Source: an uncultured Myxococcales bacterium
Lineage (GTDB): Bacteria > Myxococcota_A > UBA9042
Reading direction: 5' to 3'
DNA: 64,000 nucleotides
NCBI GenBank assembly: GCA_903842345.1
Contig: CAIMLR010000036.1
Location: 372,001-436,000 of the forward strand
Part shown: one piece after another, positions 47,204 to 64,000 of the stretch
Numbering within the stretch: position 1 is the stretch's first letter
Layout: the number at the start of each line of letters is the position of its first letter
Position numbers and translations under genes: made by a program
Notes under the pieces: generated by a model
What the model was told of the DNA's origin: nothing
Seen by the model: the letters and a program-made list of their open reading frames with translations, nothing else
Database searches by the model: none

Positions 47204-47277
<74 letters not shown>

Positions 47278-57897: not shown

Positions 57898-60174
57898 CTA
57901 CTTCCCGGAAACGACGCCCGACAGATAGCGCACCCGCACCTGCCACTTGGGTTCGCCTTTGCCGTGCGCCGCGATCTTCAGCAGCACGCCGTCGCCGCTC
58001 CCGCCAATGACCAAATCCTGCGGCTGCCCGGGTTGCACGACGAGCGTGCGGACGTCGACTTGCTGCCCCACGTCCCGCACCGTCAGCTGATACGCACCCG
58101 CGCCGGTCGCCTGCGCTTCCAGCCGAATCCGCGCGAGGCTCGGGTCGCCGCCATCCAAACGCAGCCAATCCGCGCCGTCCTGCGCCAAACCGGTCTGCCA
58201 CGTGCCCAGCGCCAGCGGATTGGCCTGTTCCGCGGTATCATTCGGCTCGATTTCGGCGAATTCGACCACGTCGCGCTGGTCATACTTGAGGCGATACGGC
58301 GCTTCCTCAGCCGGCAGCGGCACGTCCTTGGGTGCCTGACGCAACAGCACAAGGCGATCGGGGATCTGGTCGCCCGTCGGCACAAAGCCCAACGACGCCT
58401 GACGCTCGCCCGCGCGCATCGCCCGACTCGCGATGGTGCGCCCCGCCTGATCCAGCAGCAGCATTTGCGTCCCCACCGGCGGATTTTCCGGCAGCTCCAG
58501 GGAAACCCACACAAGGCGACCGTCGACCGCGCCCTCCAGCCGAAACACGTCGCGGTCCTTTGGCCCTTCCAGGCTGCCTGTGCGCAGCGCGCCGACGGGC
58601 AGGTTCTCGCCCGGCGCCACATCATTGGGCTCCTGCTCGCTGTCGGCGGCCCCCTCTGAATGGGTCACCCTGAGCTTGTACGCATCGCTCAGGCTCTCGC
58701 TCGCCGTGCCATTTGGCGCGATCGCCTCCGTCACGCACACCGCCGTCACCGGTAGCCGCGGATCGGCAAACCGCAGCAGTTCGCCCTGACCGCGGCCGCG
58801 ATGGTCCACGCTCAGACGCGCGTCCCCATCCTTGTCGTTCAGCGTCAGCAGCACGTCCATGTTCGGCAGGCCTGTGACCTGCACGCTGAACGTCTCGCCC
58901 GCCGCCAGTTTGGGCAATGCGTAGCAGTCCTGATCCGCCTGGGTCGCGGAGCGGCGCTTGCCCAGATAGCCCACCGCACTGCCGTCAGCCGCCAGCATCC
59001 CCGGATGGCGCGCGTCATCGTTGGGCTCCACTTCCTGGCCAGGCGTCGGTTCGCTGTGGGACGTCAGCACAAGCGCAGTTCCGACCGTCAGCGCCGTCAG
59101 CACTGCCACGAACACCGCCACGCGCCGCAACGTCGTCCGCCGCGCCATCGACTCCACGTGCGGCTCGGGGATCTCCGGCTCGACCTCGTGGCCCACGTCC
59201 TGCCAGCCGGACTGCTGCGCCACCTGCAGCGCATCGGCCAGCTCGGCCATCGTCTGGAAACGGTCCTCCGGCTTCTTGGCCAGGCACTTCGCGACGATCC
59301 GCTCCACCACCGGCGGAATCGCCACGCCCGCGGGCGCGACCTCCGCCATCTGCGGCGTGCGATCCATCAGGTGCGCCTTGAGGATGTCGAACGTCGCCTG
59401 ATCGCTGCCGTGGACGTAGCGCCCGGTGAGCATGCGGAACATCAGCGCGCCCACCGAGTAGATGTCGCTCCGCCCGTCCACGTCGGCCGCGCGGATTTGC
59501 TCGGGGCTCATGTAGTACGGCGTGCCGAACAGTTCAGCGCGCGAATGCACGTCGTACAGGTCTTCTGAGTTCTTGAGCTTGGCGAGGCCGAAATCGAGGA
59601 TCTTGACGAAATCCGTCGGCCCTTCGCCGGCCACGAGGAAGATGTTCTCCGGCTTCAGGTCGCGGTGCACGACGCCCGCTTCGTGCGCCTCACCCAGCGA
59701 ATCGCACATCTGCACGACGAGGTTGGCCACGCGGTCGTGCGGCAGCGGCCCGCGCGCGAGCACCACGTCCAGGGTCTCGCCTTCCAGTAGCTCCATGACG
59801 AGAAAGAACAGGTCCTGCCAGCGACCGAAATCAAAGACCCGGATCGTGTGCGCGCTGGACAGCCGCGAGATCGCGCGCGCTTCCCGCGTGAACCGGCCAA
59901 CAACCTGCTTGCGCGCCGCGAGATCCGCGTGCAGCAGCTTGATCGCCACCGTCTTCTGCATCAGCGTCTGCTCGGCGCGAAAGACCGTGCCCATGCCGCC
60001 GTGGCCGATGATCTCCTGGATCAGGTACCGGCCGTCGAGCACCGTCCCGATGTACGCCGCGCCGATCTCGACGTCGTCCGCGCTGTCGCGCGCCTCGTCC
60101 AGCGCCTCGGACGGCGGTTCAGCAGTCGGCGGTGGCGGCGCTGTCGGCAACGGTGGCGGTGAATCCTGGTTCAA
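57898..60174 (-). CDS. Ser/Thr protein kinase with external PPC-like repeats
   Basis: The best start is TTG 60174, which overlaps the TolB-like stop as TTGA; the product is 758 residues. A Pro-rich N-terminus leads to the kinase domain (about 45-310): IIGHGGMGTVFRAEQ, VAIKLLHAD, VVHRDLKPENIF, ILDFGLAKL, GTPYYMSPEQ. A membrane helix (VAVFVAVLTALTVGTALVLT) near 345-365 is followed by repeats starting EPNDDARHP, EPNDVAPGE and EPNDTAEQA. These recall bacterial pre-peptidase C-terminal (PPC) modules. The kinase looks active, with an external sensory part. Confidence 0.9.
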   Translation of the reverse strand: MNQDSPPPLPTAPPPPTAEPPSEALDEARDSADDVEIGAAYIGTVLDGRYLIQEIIGHGGMGTVFRAEQTLMQKTVAIKLLHADLAARKQVVGRFTREARAISRLSSAHTIRVFDFGRWQDLFFLVMELLEGETLDVVLARGPLPHDRVANLVVQMCDSLGEAHEAGVVHRDLKPENIFLVAGEGPTDFVKILDFGLAKLKNSEDLYDVHSRAELFGTPYYMSPEQIRAADVDGRSDIYSVGALMFRMLTGRYVHGSDQATFDILKAHLMDRTPQMAEVAPAGVAIPPVVERIVAKCLAKKPEDRFQTMAELADALQVAQQSGWQDVGHEVEPEIPEPHVESMARRTTLRRVAVFVAVLTALTVGTALVLTSHSEPTPGQEVEPNDDARHPGMLAADGSAVGYLGKRRSATQADQDCYALPKLAAGETFSVQVTGLPNMDVLLTLNDKDGDARLSVDHRGRGQGELLRFADPRLPVTAVCVTEAIAPNGTASESLSDAYKLRVTHSEGAADSEQEPNDVAPGENLPVGALRTGSLEGPKDRDVFRLEGAVDGRLVWVSLELPENPPVGTQMLLLDQAGRTIASRAMRAGERQASLGFVPTGDQIPDRLVLLRQAPKDVPLPAEEAPYRLKYDQRDVVEFAEIEPNDTAEQANPLALGTWQTGLAQDGADWLRLDGGDPSLARIRLEAQATGAGAYQLTVRDVGQQVDVRTLVVQPGQPQDLVIGGSGDGVLLKIAAHGKGEPKWQVRVRYLSGVVSGK

Positions 60175-61757
60175 TGGCGCGGATTCCAAATCTTGGGGCC
60201 TTTGCCCGGCGTGCGCTGCCAGGACGGCGTGTAGTATTGACCGCACGGCACATCCAGGGGCTCGCGCGCGGCGCCATCGGCCGCGGTCACCCAGAGGCGC
60301 GAGCACTTTCCGTCCTCATTGGACGCATACACCAGCCGCTTGCCGTCCGGGGACCAGCTCGGCTCCAGCGAACGTCGCCCTTGGCCGGGCGTCAAACGCT
60401 GCAGCTTGCCGGCCATCGTCACGGTCATGATGTCCACGGCGTTGCCACGCAGCGCGGAAAACGCGATGCGGCCATCGGGACCCCAATCCGGGTCGGTGTT
60501 GTACGGTCCCACGAACGTGAGGCGCTTGGTGTCGTGGCCCGTCGCGTCCATCACGTAGACCTGCGGCGTGCCGGTGCGGTCGCTGACAAACGCGATGTGT
60601 TCGCCATCGGGCGAGAACGTCGGACCCAGATCGTCGTGCTCGTCGTGGGTCAGGTTGCGATCCATGTGGCCCGTGTAGTCGAGCGTGTAGATGTCCGACT
60701 GGTCGCCGTCATTGACGGTCACCACCAGATCCCCGCGGGAGTTCTGCGCGCACGAGTGAAACTGCAGATCCGGCCCCGACGCGAACGGCGGCGGAATCGG
60801 CGGCGGCTCATCGGGCGAGGTCGACTTGGTCGGCGCGCCCTTCTTGGGCTTGGCGTTCTTGACCACCGGCGTCATGTCCGAGAGCGCCATCACCTGCGCG
60901 AGGTCCAGCTTGTAGAGCGACGGCAAACCGCTGCGAAAGGACATGTACGCGAGCGCGGCGTCCTGCAGCTGGATCGGGAACATGTGGATGCCGTCCTTGC
61001 CACCGTCGCCGATCAGCACGCGCCGGTTGAAGCCGTCGGCGTCGGCCTGCCAAATCGCGCGGGTGCAGCCGGGAGCCGGCGCGCTGTAGTAAATGACCGT
61101 GTCAAACGTGCCCTCAATGCCGGTGACGGCGCCCTGGAGCGCGTTCATCAGCCGGTGCGCGGCCTGACGGACCGTCGCCTGCGGCACGATTTGGTTGGCC
61201 TGATCGCCGAGGTCGAGCATCTTGCCCGCGCGGACGTCATACAGGCTCGCACCGACGTCCAGCATGCCCGCCTGCTTGGCTGCGCGCACGTACGTGGCGA
61301 CGACGTACTGGATATTGGCGCCCGCAGGACCGCCGGGCTTGACGGCAAACGCCGGCATCGGCGCCTTGATGACCTGCGCCGCGAGACCGGGCGAATGGCG
61401 CACCGGCCGGACGAAACCGGACAGCCGCGCGTCATTCGCGAGCACGGACTCGAGTAGATCGCACGCGGACTTGAGCTCCGGCGCCGGCTTGGGACCGCCG
61501 CACGACGGCGCCACAACGTAGAGCGCGTCCATCGGCCGCGAGGACGCTTCGACGACCACGTACAGGCCACCGCTCTCATCGACCGCGGGCACGTCGACCG
61601 GATTCGTCGTTGTCTGATTGGGGATCGCCGCCTGCCCACCACGACCATCGCCACCCGGCACCGGCAACGGCTGCGCAGCCGCAACCCCGGACAAGAGCGA
61701 GGCAATCGCGACCAGCGCGGCAAAACGCGCGGCGGGACGGGTAGAAATTCGCGACAT
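60171..61757 (-). CDS. TolB-like beta-propeller protein
   Basis: The start ATG 61757 opens a signal peptide (FAALVAIASLLSGVAAAQP); the product is 528 residues. The N-terminal half has a TolB-N-like alpha/beta domain (YVVATYVRAAKQAGMLDVGASLYDVRAG). The C-terminal half shows TolB/WD40-like blades: LGPTFSPDGEHIAFVSDRTG, TDPDWGPDGRIAFSALRG, LEPSWSPDGKRLVYASNEDG. A Pro-rich linker joins them. TolB is a periplasmic part of the Tol-Pal system; here its partner is a Ser/Thr kinase whose TTG start overlaps its stop, so the two are translationally coupled. Confidence 0.82.
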   Translation of the reverse strand: MSRISTRPAARFAALVAIASLLSGVAAAQPLPVPGGDGRGGQAAIPNQTTTNPVDVPAVDESGGLYVVVEASSRPMDALYVVAPSCGGPKPAPELKSACDLLESVLANDARLSGFVRPVRHSPGLAAQVIKAPMPAFAVKPGGPAGANIQYVVATYVRAAKQAGMLDVGASLYDVRAGKMLDLGDQANQIVPQATVRQAAHRLMNALQGAVTGIEGTFDTVIYYSAPAPGCTRAIWQADADGFNRRVLIGDGGKDGIHMFPIQLQDAALAYMSFRSGLPSLYKLDLAQVMALSDMTPVVKNAKPKKGAPTKSTSPDEPPPIPPPFASGPDLQFHSCAQNSRGDLVVTVNDGDQSDIYTLDYTGHMDRNLTHDEHDDLGPTFSPDGEHIAFVSDRTGTPQVYVMDATGHDTKRLTFVGPYNTDPDWGPDGRIAFSALRGNAVDIMTVTMAGKLQRLTPGQGRRSLEPSWSPDGKRLVYASNEDGKCSRLWVTAADGAAREPLDVPCGQYYTPSWQRTPGKGPKIWNPRH

Positions 61758-61800
61758 GACCCCAACTACCGCGGCAACAAGCGCCGCGTCTCCAACGTGC

Positions 61801-61829
61801 CAGATAGCCTCTGGCGGGATCGCGGTCAA
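61801..61829 (-). promoter_or_regulatory. Promoter of the tolB-kinase pair
   Basis: On the minus strand TTGACC (61829-61824) and TATCTG (61806-61801) are 17 bases apart, with GC before the -10. It lies 44 bases before the ATG. The rest of the gap 61758-62089 holds this promoter and, on the other strand, the promoter of the structured RNA; no gene is visible. Confidence 0.6.
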
Positions 61830-62032
61830 GGAATTGCGCGATGATTGGAAACTGACGCGGATCCGGCGCGTTGCACGCCTGACACAATCGCGGTCGGCGA
61901 CTTCAGGGCCGTTCCAGGCGCTCATCCGCGCTTTCAACAGCAATCGCAGCTGGTTACGCGACACCACCCGGAGCACCGCACGACGCGCGCAAAACTATTT
62001 TCGCCACCAACATGGCAAAATGACACACATCC

Positions 62033-62051
62033 GTCACAAAGTTTGTGTGAC
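62033..62051. promoter_or_regulatory. Inverted repeat upstream of the structured-RNA promoter
   Basis: GTCACA (62033-62038) and TGTGAC (62046-62051) form a six-base inverted repeat directly before the -35 candidate at 62056. The arrangement suits a dimeric regulator. Confidence 0.45.
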
Positions 62052-62055
62052 AGAC

Positions 62056-62083
62056 TTGCAACATCCACGACACCTGTTATCTT
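62056..62083 (+). promoter_or_regulatory. Candidate promoter of the structured RNA
   Basis: TTGCAA (62056-62061), 16 bases, then TATCTT (62078-62083) with TG at 62075-62076, an extended -10. Transcription would begin near 62090, just where the T-poor hairpin-rich sequence begins. Confidence 0.55.
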
Positions 62084-62328
62084 CCTGAATGCGTGAGCGG
62101 CAGACGTTCACCAGCGGCCCGAAAGCAAGACGCCCTCTGCGCGAGGACAACGTCGAGACGGCCAGAGGCGCGCAGAACCGCGGAGGACCGAAAGGCCCGA
62201 CCAGGAACTGCGTGAGATGGAAAGGAACAGCAGCGAACCTTCAGGGTGCCAGCCGCAAGGCGAACATGAGAAGGGGATGCGCAGCGGACAGCGAGGCGGT
62301 AACGCGCTCCGCGCTGCAACGGTGAAGC

Positions 62329-62344
62329 GCGACGGCAACGTCGC
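62329..62344 (+). other. GCAA hairpin in the structured RNA
   Basis: GCGACG, GCAA, CGTCGC: six perfect pairs with a GNRA loop. Smaller GNRA stems lie at 62252-62261, 62296-62305 (GTAA), 62429-62440 and 62506-62517. Confidence 0.75.
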
Positions 62345-62773
62345 AGGTAGCTGGGCTGGACAACCATCGAGGCACTGGCAGTTGCACAAGGGCAAGAAGC
62401 TCAGGAGGGAGAAGCTGAAGACGGCAAAGCTCGCAAGAGCCAAGTACGGTCAGCGCGACGCCCATCGATTGAGACCTTGAGATGGCGACCCGGGACGGCA
62501 CAGAAGCACGCAAGTGCGGACGTGCGCACACGCTGACGCGCAAGCGATGGCGGCAAGGAACGGGCCAAACATGAGAAGGGAGCACCGGCGAAATCCGGCG
62601 CCCGGCGCAAGCCGAGGTAGCACGTGGCGGCGAAAGCCAAAACGCAATGTGCAAGGTGGACGGCGTAAAGCCCTGGAGAGCGGGAACCCCAAGAGAGGTG
62701 CGAGTCGAGCTAGCGGTGTGACAGCCGTTCCCGACCACGCGCTCATTGTGGGCTTAAACCCTTGAATCTGACT

Positions 62774-62811
62774 GCGAGGGACGCGACAGCAATGCCGCGG
62801 TAATCCCTCGC
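62774..62811 (+). other. Long two-part helix capped by GCAA
   Basis: GCGAGGGA (62774-62781) pairs with TCCCTCGC (62804-62811). Inside, CGCGACA (62782-62788) pairs with TGCCGCG (62793-62799) with one A-C mismatch around GCAA, leaving a four-base bulge (62800-62803). Together this is about 14 pairs. Confidence 0.75.
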
Positions 62812-62995
62812 GATGTGAAGGACGGTCGGTTGGACTGGTGCAGCACGGGTGCAAACCCGCGCTCAGGACCACCGAGGCGACGCAGCCGGGCGCAAGTCCG
62901 TGGGCGGAGTTCAAGAGGCCGCAAGGCCAAGCGTCTTTCAGACTTGTGCAGGCGACGCGAGGGCGACATCTCTCGCGCTCCAGCGCTGACGCGAT

Positions 62996-63055
62996 CCAGC
63001 AGCGATGCTGGCAAGCGACTGACGGCAACGTCAGGGAAACCGACAGCAATGTCGG
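62996..63055 (+). other. Three consecutive six-pair GNRA hairpins
   Basis: CCAGCA/TGCTGG with GCGA (62996-63011), CTGACG/CGTCAG with GCAA (63019-63034) and CCGACA/TGTCGG with GCAA (63040-63055). Each is 16 bases long with different stem sequences, so they are not simple copies; they are separated by only 7 and 5 bases. Confidence 0.8.
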
Positions 63056-63104
63056 CGACAACAGCGCGAAACCTGCGGCAGCGTGCGACGCTGCTTCGGT
63101 GTCA

Positions 63105-63118
63105 GTACCTTCGGGTAC
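63105..63118 (+). other. UUCG hairpin in the structured RNA
   Basis: GTACC, TTCG, GGTAC, a five-pair stem closed by C-G around a UUCG loop. A six-pair stem with a five-base loop precedes it (63078-63094) and a weaker UUCG stem follows (63125-63134). Confidence 0.75.
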
Positions 63119-63513
63119 AACTGGGCTTTCGGGCACAGGACGCCAACGTGCATACGGGCCTTGAGTCCGACAGCACGTACAAGTCAGCATCAGGTGCGAA
63201 CGGCGACGGCGGCGGCAACGCCAGGCCCAAGCTCAGGCGCACTTAGGAAAAGACAGAAGGGCACGGTAAACCGAGAGGTGTCCGGCTTACGATGAGAACA
63301 CACTCTGCAGGGGTAAACCCCATGGACGGAGCCAAGGTGGAAAAGACTTGGCAAGTGACCGAGGTAGGTGCGCAACGCTGCAAGAAAGCAGCGCGAAGCA
63401 CGCAACGTCACAGGGCGCAGGCTGAACAAGCCGCTTCCAACCGGGAGCACGCGAACCCTGGACGTTGAGAGAAGTGAGCGGACGTTCGCGAGAACGCAGC
63501 GCGACTTTGGGCA

Positions 63514-63532
63514 CGGCGATTGGGAATCGCCG
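63514..63532 (+). other. Eight-pair hairpin in the structured RNA
   Basis: CGGCGATT pairs perfectly with AATCGCCG around GGG. Just upstream, CGTTC/GAACG with loop GCGA lies at 63483-63496. Confidence 0.7.
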
Positions 63533-63634
63533 GGCAACAAGGCCTCAGTCATGCAACCGTCGGAGGGGCAAAAAACCTCAGGAAGGGACGTCATCTGACG
63601 AGCTACGCCGAGCACAAGGCGCAGACCGCCAGAA

Positions 63635-63662
63635 GCCAAGGATCGCGAAAGCGACCTTTGGC
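63635..63662 (+). other. GAAA-capped long helix in the structured RNA
   Basis: GCCAAGG (63635-63641) pairs with CCTTTGGC (63655-63662) with one bulge, enclosing TCGC, GAAA, GCGA (63643-63654). Further downstream CGAAC, GGAA, GTTCG lies at 63751-63764. Confidence 0.7.
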
Positions 63663-64000
63663 AGGACGACCGACACCGGAAAAAGTTCAGAAATGCGCCG
63701 AAGATGACCACGGGCGACTGTGGCGACTGCGGAGAGCATCTGGACCTGTTCGAACGGAAGTTCGGGCAGCCGCGCGGCGCAAGCCAAACAGCGGACGAAG
63801 CGCAAGCTGAGGCAACACGGTCAAGTGGCGCGAAAGACCACGAGCGATTGGCAGATTGAGGAGTCAACCTTTCTCTGCGCCGGTATGAAACGGAAAACCT
63901 CAGGGACCAGGACGTCGCGTCCAAAGGTCGAAGAGGGAGAGGCAACCCATGAGCCTCTACGTTTGATGCCGTGATCGCTGAAGGCACAAGCAACCACAAC

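Follow-up and report, generated by a model that had tools for sequence, protein, structure and literature searches.

To our knowledge, hardly any structured bacterial RNAs longer than 1 kb have been described besides rRNA and intron RNAs. Among the closest described systems, OLE measures ~600 nt (PMC12054373), ROOL 659 nt and GOLLD >800 nt; ROOL and GOLLD are encoded in phages and prophages, often beside tRNA genes (PMC12286853). Here we analyze a locus at the end of a 64,000-nt stretch of DNA (hereafter, the window), which is part of contig C36 of a 5.85-Mb genome (G000). A preliminary description of this DNA had proposed one rightward-transcribed, very large structured RNA of unrecognized family. 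Our analysis supports that proposal with strong covariation, the absence of a conserved reading frame and of any Rfam match, and a single promoter candidate and terminator. We are nearly certain that the locus encodes a giant bacterial RNA belonging to a new class.

Results

Extent and setting of the RNA gene

The RNA gene does not stop at the window edge. Sequence read beyond the window places its 3' end ~165 nt further on, at an intrinsic terminator (Table 1) that gives the gene a length of ~2.07 kb, and a similar terminator is present at the equivalent site in the other congeners whose contig extends far enough. The preliminary description had put the start near 62090, had the RNA running past the window and had ranked it above OLE, ROOL and GOLLD in size; all three points hold, with a hairpin marking the 5' end and a promoter candidate just upstream of it. 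The stem of this hairpin covaries in G012 (GTGGACG..CGTCCAC). Upstream of the RNA, CTTGCAACAT is unchanged in five congeners and in G005, a genome of the same family, while the -10-like TATCTT is replaced by CATAGT in G002, G003 and G005. The site fell below threshold in a consensus scan, and its role as promoter of the RNA is a candidate assignment inferred from conservation. The palindrome next to it is matched in G000, G001, G002 and G004; only its right half is matched in G003, where the alignment is incomplete.

The position of the RNA is unchanged in four congeners, with homologous flanks where the contig permits. In G005, the RNA is flanked by a 5'-nucleotidase and an aldo/keto reductase, compared to a PD40 protein and a GDSL hydrolase in the window's genus, and its occurrence between such different genes indicates that the RNA gene is a self-contained unit. 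Upstream in the window, two genes run on the minus strand, away from the RNA (57898-60303 and 60171-61973); they encode a serine/threonine kinase and a TolB-like protein with a PD40 beta-propeller. The downstream side (L011:4972-8184) holds a frame for a GDSL-type hydrolase and the gene for an L-asparaginase II. The sole Rfam match in the window is a tRNA-Met (CAT) at 47204-47277 on the minus strand.

Table 1 Features of the RNA locus, in window positions
Feature	Position	Strand	Description
Operator-like inverted repeat	62031-62053	.	CYGTCACA-N7-TGTGACAG; directly upstream of the promoter candidate
Promoter candidate	62056-62083	+	-35 TTGCAA (62056-62061), 16-nt spacer, -10 TATCTT (62078-62083)
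RNA gene, part within the window	62090-64000	+	Homology and indel pattern in five congeners, hairpins, terminator
5'-end hairpin	62090-62116	+	TGCGTGAGCG-GCAGA-CGTTCAC-CA-GCG; conserved in five congeners and G005
5' and middle domain	62329-63051	+	GNRA loops at 62335, 62433, 62510, 62607, 62851, 62892, 62921, 63002, 63025 and 63046; pairs kept via double changes in congeners
Element P_a/P_b	63303-63352	+	CTCTGCAGGGG..CCCCATGGACGG, then hairpin GCCAAG-GUGGAAAAGA-CUUGGC (family loop RUGAAACARR); model R3, phylum-wide
3' element D	63891-63961	+	Nested helices CCUC/GAGG, GACC/GGUC and GGACG/CGUCC, then hairpin AGAGGC/GCCUCU; model R1, many genera; 24-sequence covariation
Intrinsic terminator	64132-64158 (G000:C36:436132-436158)	+	CAAAAGCCCCGCAAGTCGGGGCTTTTG then TGTTTTT

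Structure and coding potential

From 62090 on, a 2.1-kb stretch carries 17 GNRA or UUCG hairpins with stems of at least 4 bp on the plus strand, compared to one on the antisense strand, a mean of 1.4 (maximum 6) in 200 dinucleotide shuffles and a mean of 1.35 (maximum 5) in equal-length pieces from the rest of the window. More than 20 GNRA hairpins had been reported previously; most of the positions listed as examples are among our 17, but some of the loops listed then have stems shorter than 4 bp. Hairpins at 63714 and 63756 and the UUCG hairpin at 63110 are poorly preserved in congeners. Across four congeners, 244 of 260 stem pairs survive (197 identical, 18 with one-sided changes and 29 with double changes) and 16 are broken. 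The 29 double changes are direct compensatory evolution, so the lack of covariation that had been named as a possible refutation is not what we observed.

The RNA strand is poor in T (12.0% versus 15.9% in the window), as had been noted, and rich in A (26% versus 17.6%). Because T is rare on this strand, the open frames within the stretch, which reach 269 aa, are mostly antisense. Stops or frame-shifting indels disrupt the frames on either strand in four congeners, and the earlier statement that no credible gene is present stands. Minimum folding energy was unusual for the second half only (z = -7.2 for 63081-64000 and -1.05 for 62090-63080); energy alone is therefore insufficient proof of structure, which is supplied by conservation.

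Covariance models define a phylum-wide family

A covariance model built from element D (R1) detected relatives with confidence both in other families and throughout the phylum, with E values down to 9e-12. R1 also gave a weak second match in the window's own genome (G000:C44:14356-14414, E = 0.0175). Further landmarks common to the R1 relatives gave model R2, which describes the core from P_b to P_e and was built from ten sequences, all outside the window's genus. Of 379 genomes from the phylum, at least 82 had an R2 match at E <= 0.001, a lower bound because only ten candidate places were scored per genome. In the 50 loci compared, all R1 matches (24/24) sit 164-281 nt downstream of an R2 match on the same strand; the two separately built models thus agree in order, strand and spacing. 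The relatives span the whole phylum, which is probably Myxococcota.

Covariation supports both models. In alignment A4 (55 distinct sequences), 95.2% of cells were paired and double changes occurred in 14 of 15 pairs, with 178 double-change cells compared to 48 after shuffling; controls with slid partners were 33-63% paired. Alignment A5 (24 sequences) was 94.9% paired, with 107 double-change cells compared to 27 after shuffling. Fitting to the models biases both alignments towards them; an unfitted MAFFT alignment showed compensatory changes in eight of ten predicted pairs.

Related RNAs range from 0.9 to 2.7 kb and carry 6.7 GNRA or UUCG hairpins per kb on the RNA strand versus 0.34 antisense. 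A GAA/ANG 3x3 internal loop recurs between helices (34 versus 0 antisense in family loci L035-L126; 0.60 per kb versus 0.06 in flanks) and may serve tertiary contacts or protein binding. The strict pattern is absent from the window's own RNA, and so we do not claim the loop there. Members from G095 (L109:485-3175) are ~2.7 kb, near the size of 23S rRNA; their RNA strand has 18-19 tetraloop hairpins, versus 0-2 antisense. Two other genomes (G285, L121; G273, L122) have two R2 core matches ~270 nt apart on one strand, either a core domain duplicated within one RNA or a tandem copy.

The R2 model had no significant match in the window's genus (L011, E = 0.37, weak), whose core has an altered P_c/P_d part, and the core is found in other members of its family. 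For this reason, we built a third model (R3) from the neighboring P_a/P_b element, using 35 sequences and excluding the window's genus, G005 and G012. In the 64-kb window, R3 scored best at 63315-63355 on the plus strand (E = 1.5e-5, versus 0.16 for the runner-up), and across the whole genome no other site reached E <= 0.01 (E = 0.0013 for this one). R3 also matched the equivalent place in all five congeners, G005 and G012. The window RNA has the defining pair of the family, P_a/P_b with element D (R1) further downstream in the same noncoding transcript, and the R3 and R1 matches together place it in the phylum-wide family.

Comparison with known RNA classes

Searches against Rfam 15 at gathering and relaxed thresholds (E <= 1-5) returned no match for the window RNA or for 30 related loci. 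The Rfam check proposed in the preliminary description thus left the family as unrecognized as it had said, and we rejected OLE, GOLLD, ROOL, group II intron and rRNA identities for the window RNA. ARAGORN detected no tRNA or tmRNA in the RNA region and none inside the RNAs of relatives. No relative was found in phages or plasmids, and a search of viral contigs with the core pattern gave two chance matches without model support. Matches to an exact pattern searched genome-wide in Acidobacteriia (L082) and Paenibacillus (L085) were rejected as signs of a wider spread because they lie inside protein genes and lack a model match. We found no published description of this RNA class in the open literature; subscription journals and recent preprints were outside our scope.

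Copies and genomic context

Some genomes carry several copies, up to six in G055. Dispersed paralogues were seen in G055 (L048, L087-L091), G095 (L109-L111) and G291 (L123, L124). Within a genome, homology spans only the unit from promoter to terminator (1.55 kb at 94.5% in G291, ~2.7 kb in G095). Across 40 loci, upstream neighbors were on the same strand in 19 cases and on the opposite strand in 21, and downstream neighbors were split 20 and 20. No Pfam family occurred in more than two of the 80 neighbors, which rules out a conserved partner gene; a tRNA-island setting was ruled out as well, with one tRNA near the 40 loci. The even orientation of neighbors and the lack of a recurrent family indicate that the RNA is not a leader, does not belong to an operon and lacks a linked partner gene, and dispersed paralogues with unrelated flanks and no recurring partner point to a free-standing, trans-acting RNA.

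Expression signals in relatives

In many relatives, a sigma-54 promoter is followed by a boxA-like signal. Of 53 loci, 21-22 have a promoter of the TTGGCACG-N3-CCTGCATAG type ahead of the core (21 sites share the strand of the RNA, one is on the other strand, and 0.6 are expected by shuffling), and we have very little doubt that this signal is real. The boxA-like TCTTTGACGT (TTTGACG) occurs 77-122 nt after the promoter in 15 of 22 loci, and looser patterns gave 29 forward matches, two reverse and 3.8 after shuffling. A related GGTCTTTGAAAT is present in the 16S leader of G095, a family-carrying genome. On the basis of resemblance and position, TCTTTGACGT is probably a boxA as in rRNA leaders. 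Nus factors acting at boxA are reported to aid the folding of rRNA and, in reporters, can block termination by Rho (PMC5725501), activities that would suit a long untranslated RNA. In the window's own genus, we found neither the sigma-54 signal (TGGCACG-N-TTGCW, the -24/-12 element) nor the boxA signal; this part of the picture therefore rests on relatives.

Discussion

Four other explanations can be set against a single giant RNA gene. The many independent hairpins, the variable 5' domain and the long variable linkers between conserved elements would all be expected of a precursor cut into several smaller regulatory RNAs, or of a tandem set of small RNAs, which the preliminary description had named as its main alternative. 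We consider this unlikely: the unit has a single promoter and a single terminator, no terminator-like site interrupts the plus strand of its window part, the conserved elements are fixed in order and spacing, and paralogues duplicate as one 1.5-2.7 kb unit, although cleavage after transcription is still possible. The idea that either strand carries a protein gene, decayed or unusual, could draw only on the long antisense frames and is refuted by frame-breaking indels and stops in all congeners, together with the compensatory changes in stems. Nor does the locus behave as a cis-acting leader or regulatory 5' UTR. The next gene downstream is on the same strand in the window's genus, as such a reading would have it, yet no co-oriented gene is fixed among the 40 loci, intrinsic terminators separate the RNA from the next gene, and the neighbor differs in G005 with no neighbor family recurring, so that this reading is largely refuted.

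Copy number raises a different question. With up to six copies per genome, new surroundings and homology that stops at the unit borders, the RNA might be the body of a non-autonomous mobile element or of a ribozyme-type retroelement, its sequence selected for its own spread and its copies the products of transposition. Such an origin is quite unlikely in our assessment, since we saw no target-site duplication or terminal repeat at the borders of the G291 copies, no reverse transcriptase, transposase or nuclease recurring beside copies, and no group I or group II match in Rfam, whereas the locus is syntenic in those species of the window's genus with homologous flanks, and dedicated sigma-54 promoters point to regulated cellular use.

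What has been computed for the RNA is that its secondary structure is conserved, that it has a promoter region and a terminator of its own, that it codes for no protein and that its copies are dispersed; in many relatives, the sigma-54 promoter with a boxA-like signal 77-122 nt after it is a computed result as well. The explanation we lean towards, with some confidence and without transcript data, is that of a free-standing giant RNA gene whose regulated, trans-acting product folds with Nus assistance into a compact particle. The gene would be switched on under particular conditions, in many species by an enhancer-dependent activator of sigma-54 and in the window's genus by a transcription factor bound at the palindrome beside the promoter candidate. 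BoxA would recruit the NusB/NusE complex, such that the long untranslated transcript is completed and folded co-transcriptionally as for rRNA, and GNRA loops and the recurring GAA/ANG internal loops are presumed to lock the helices together. The product may be an abundant compact RNA particle acting in trans, alone, as a homo-oligomer or with proteins. Particle formation is drawn from analogy with OLE, ROOL and GOLLD; both the particle and its function are inferred, and we put the particle at slightly below an even chance. More tentative still is the idea that phylum-wide giant RNAs of up to 2.7 kb, induced by sigma-54 regulators and folded with the help of Nus factors, build a particle or machine based on RNA when cells are stressed or developing; such an RNA would be structural or catalytic, with no known counterpart.

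The class exceeds OLE, ROOL and GOLLD in size and is spread over many families of a single phylum, frequently in multiple copies. Its own expression logic, with a sigma-54 promoter and an rRNA-type boxA, makes the conditions of its use directly testable, and the covarying helices suffice as a starting point for annotating the RNA, following its expression, removing the gene and imaging by cryo-EM. A new particle, of RNA alone or of RNA and protein, may come to light here, as happened with ROOL and GOLLD.

Several known systems share features with the class. Group II introns are likewise multi-domain RNAs of ~2 kb with dispersed copies, but the new RNAs match no domain V or D1-D4 model, lack a reverse transcriptase and have their own promoter and terminator. 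The Pxr sRNA of Myxococcus xanthus is a regulatory noncoding RNA of myxobacteria (PMC11928866), although it is a small RNA with no link in sequence or size (no direct comparison was made). With rRNA operons, the class shares a long structured RNA and a boxA-type leader thought to aid folding via the Nus complex (PMC5725501); it differs in having no rRNA homology, promoters that are sigma-54-dependent or regulated, and no indicated ribosomal role. GOLLD, ROOL and OLE are also long, untranslated, GNRA-rich, extensively covarying and free-standing RNAs of unknown biochemical function. Unlike GOLLD and ROOL, the new class gave no supported match in phage or viral collections and showed no association with tRNA islands, and it is set apart from all three by the lack of an Rfam match even at E <= 1, by lengths of 0.9-2.7 kb compared to ~600-900 nt, and by sigma-54 promoters with a boxA-like leader.
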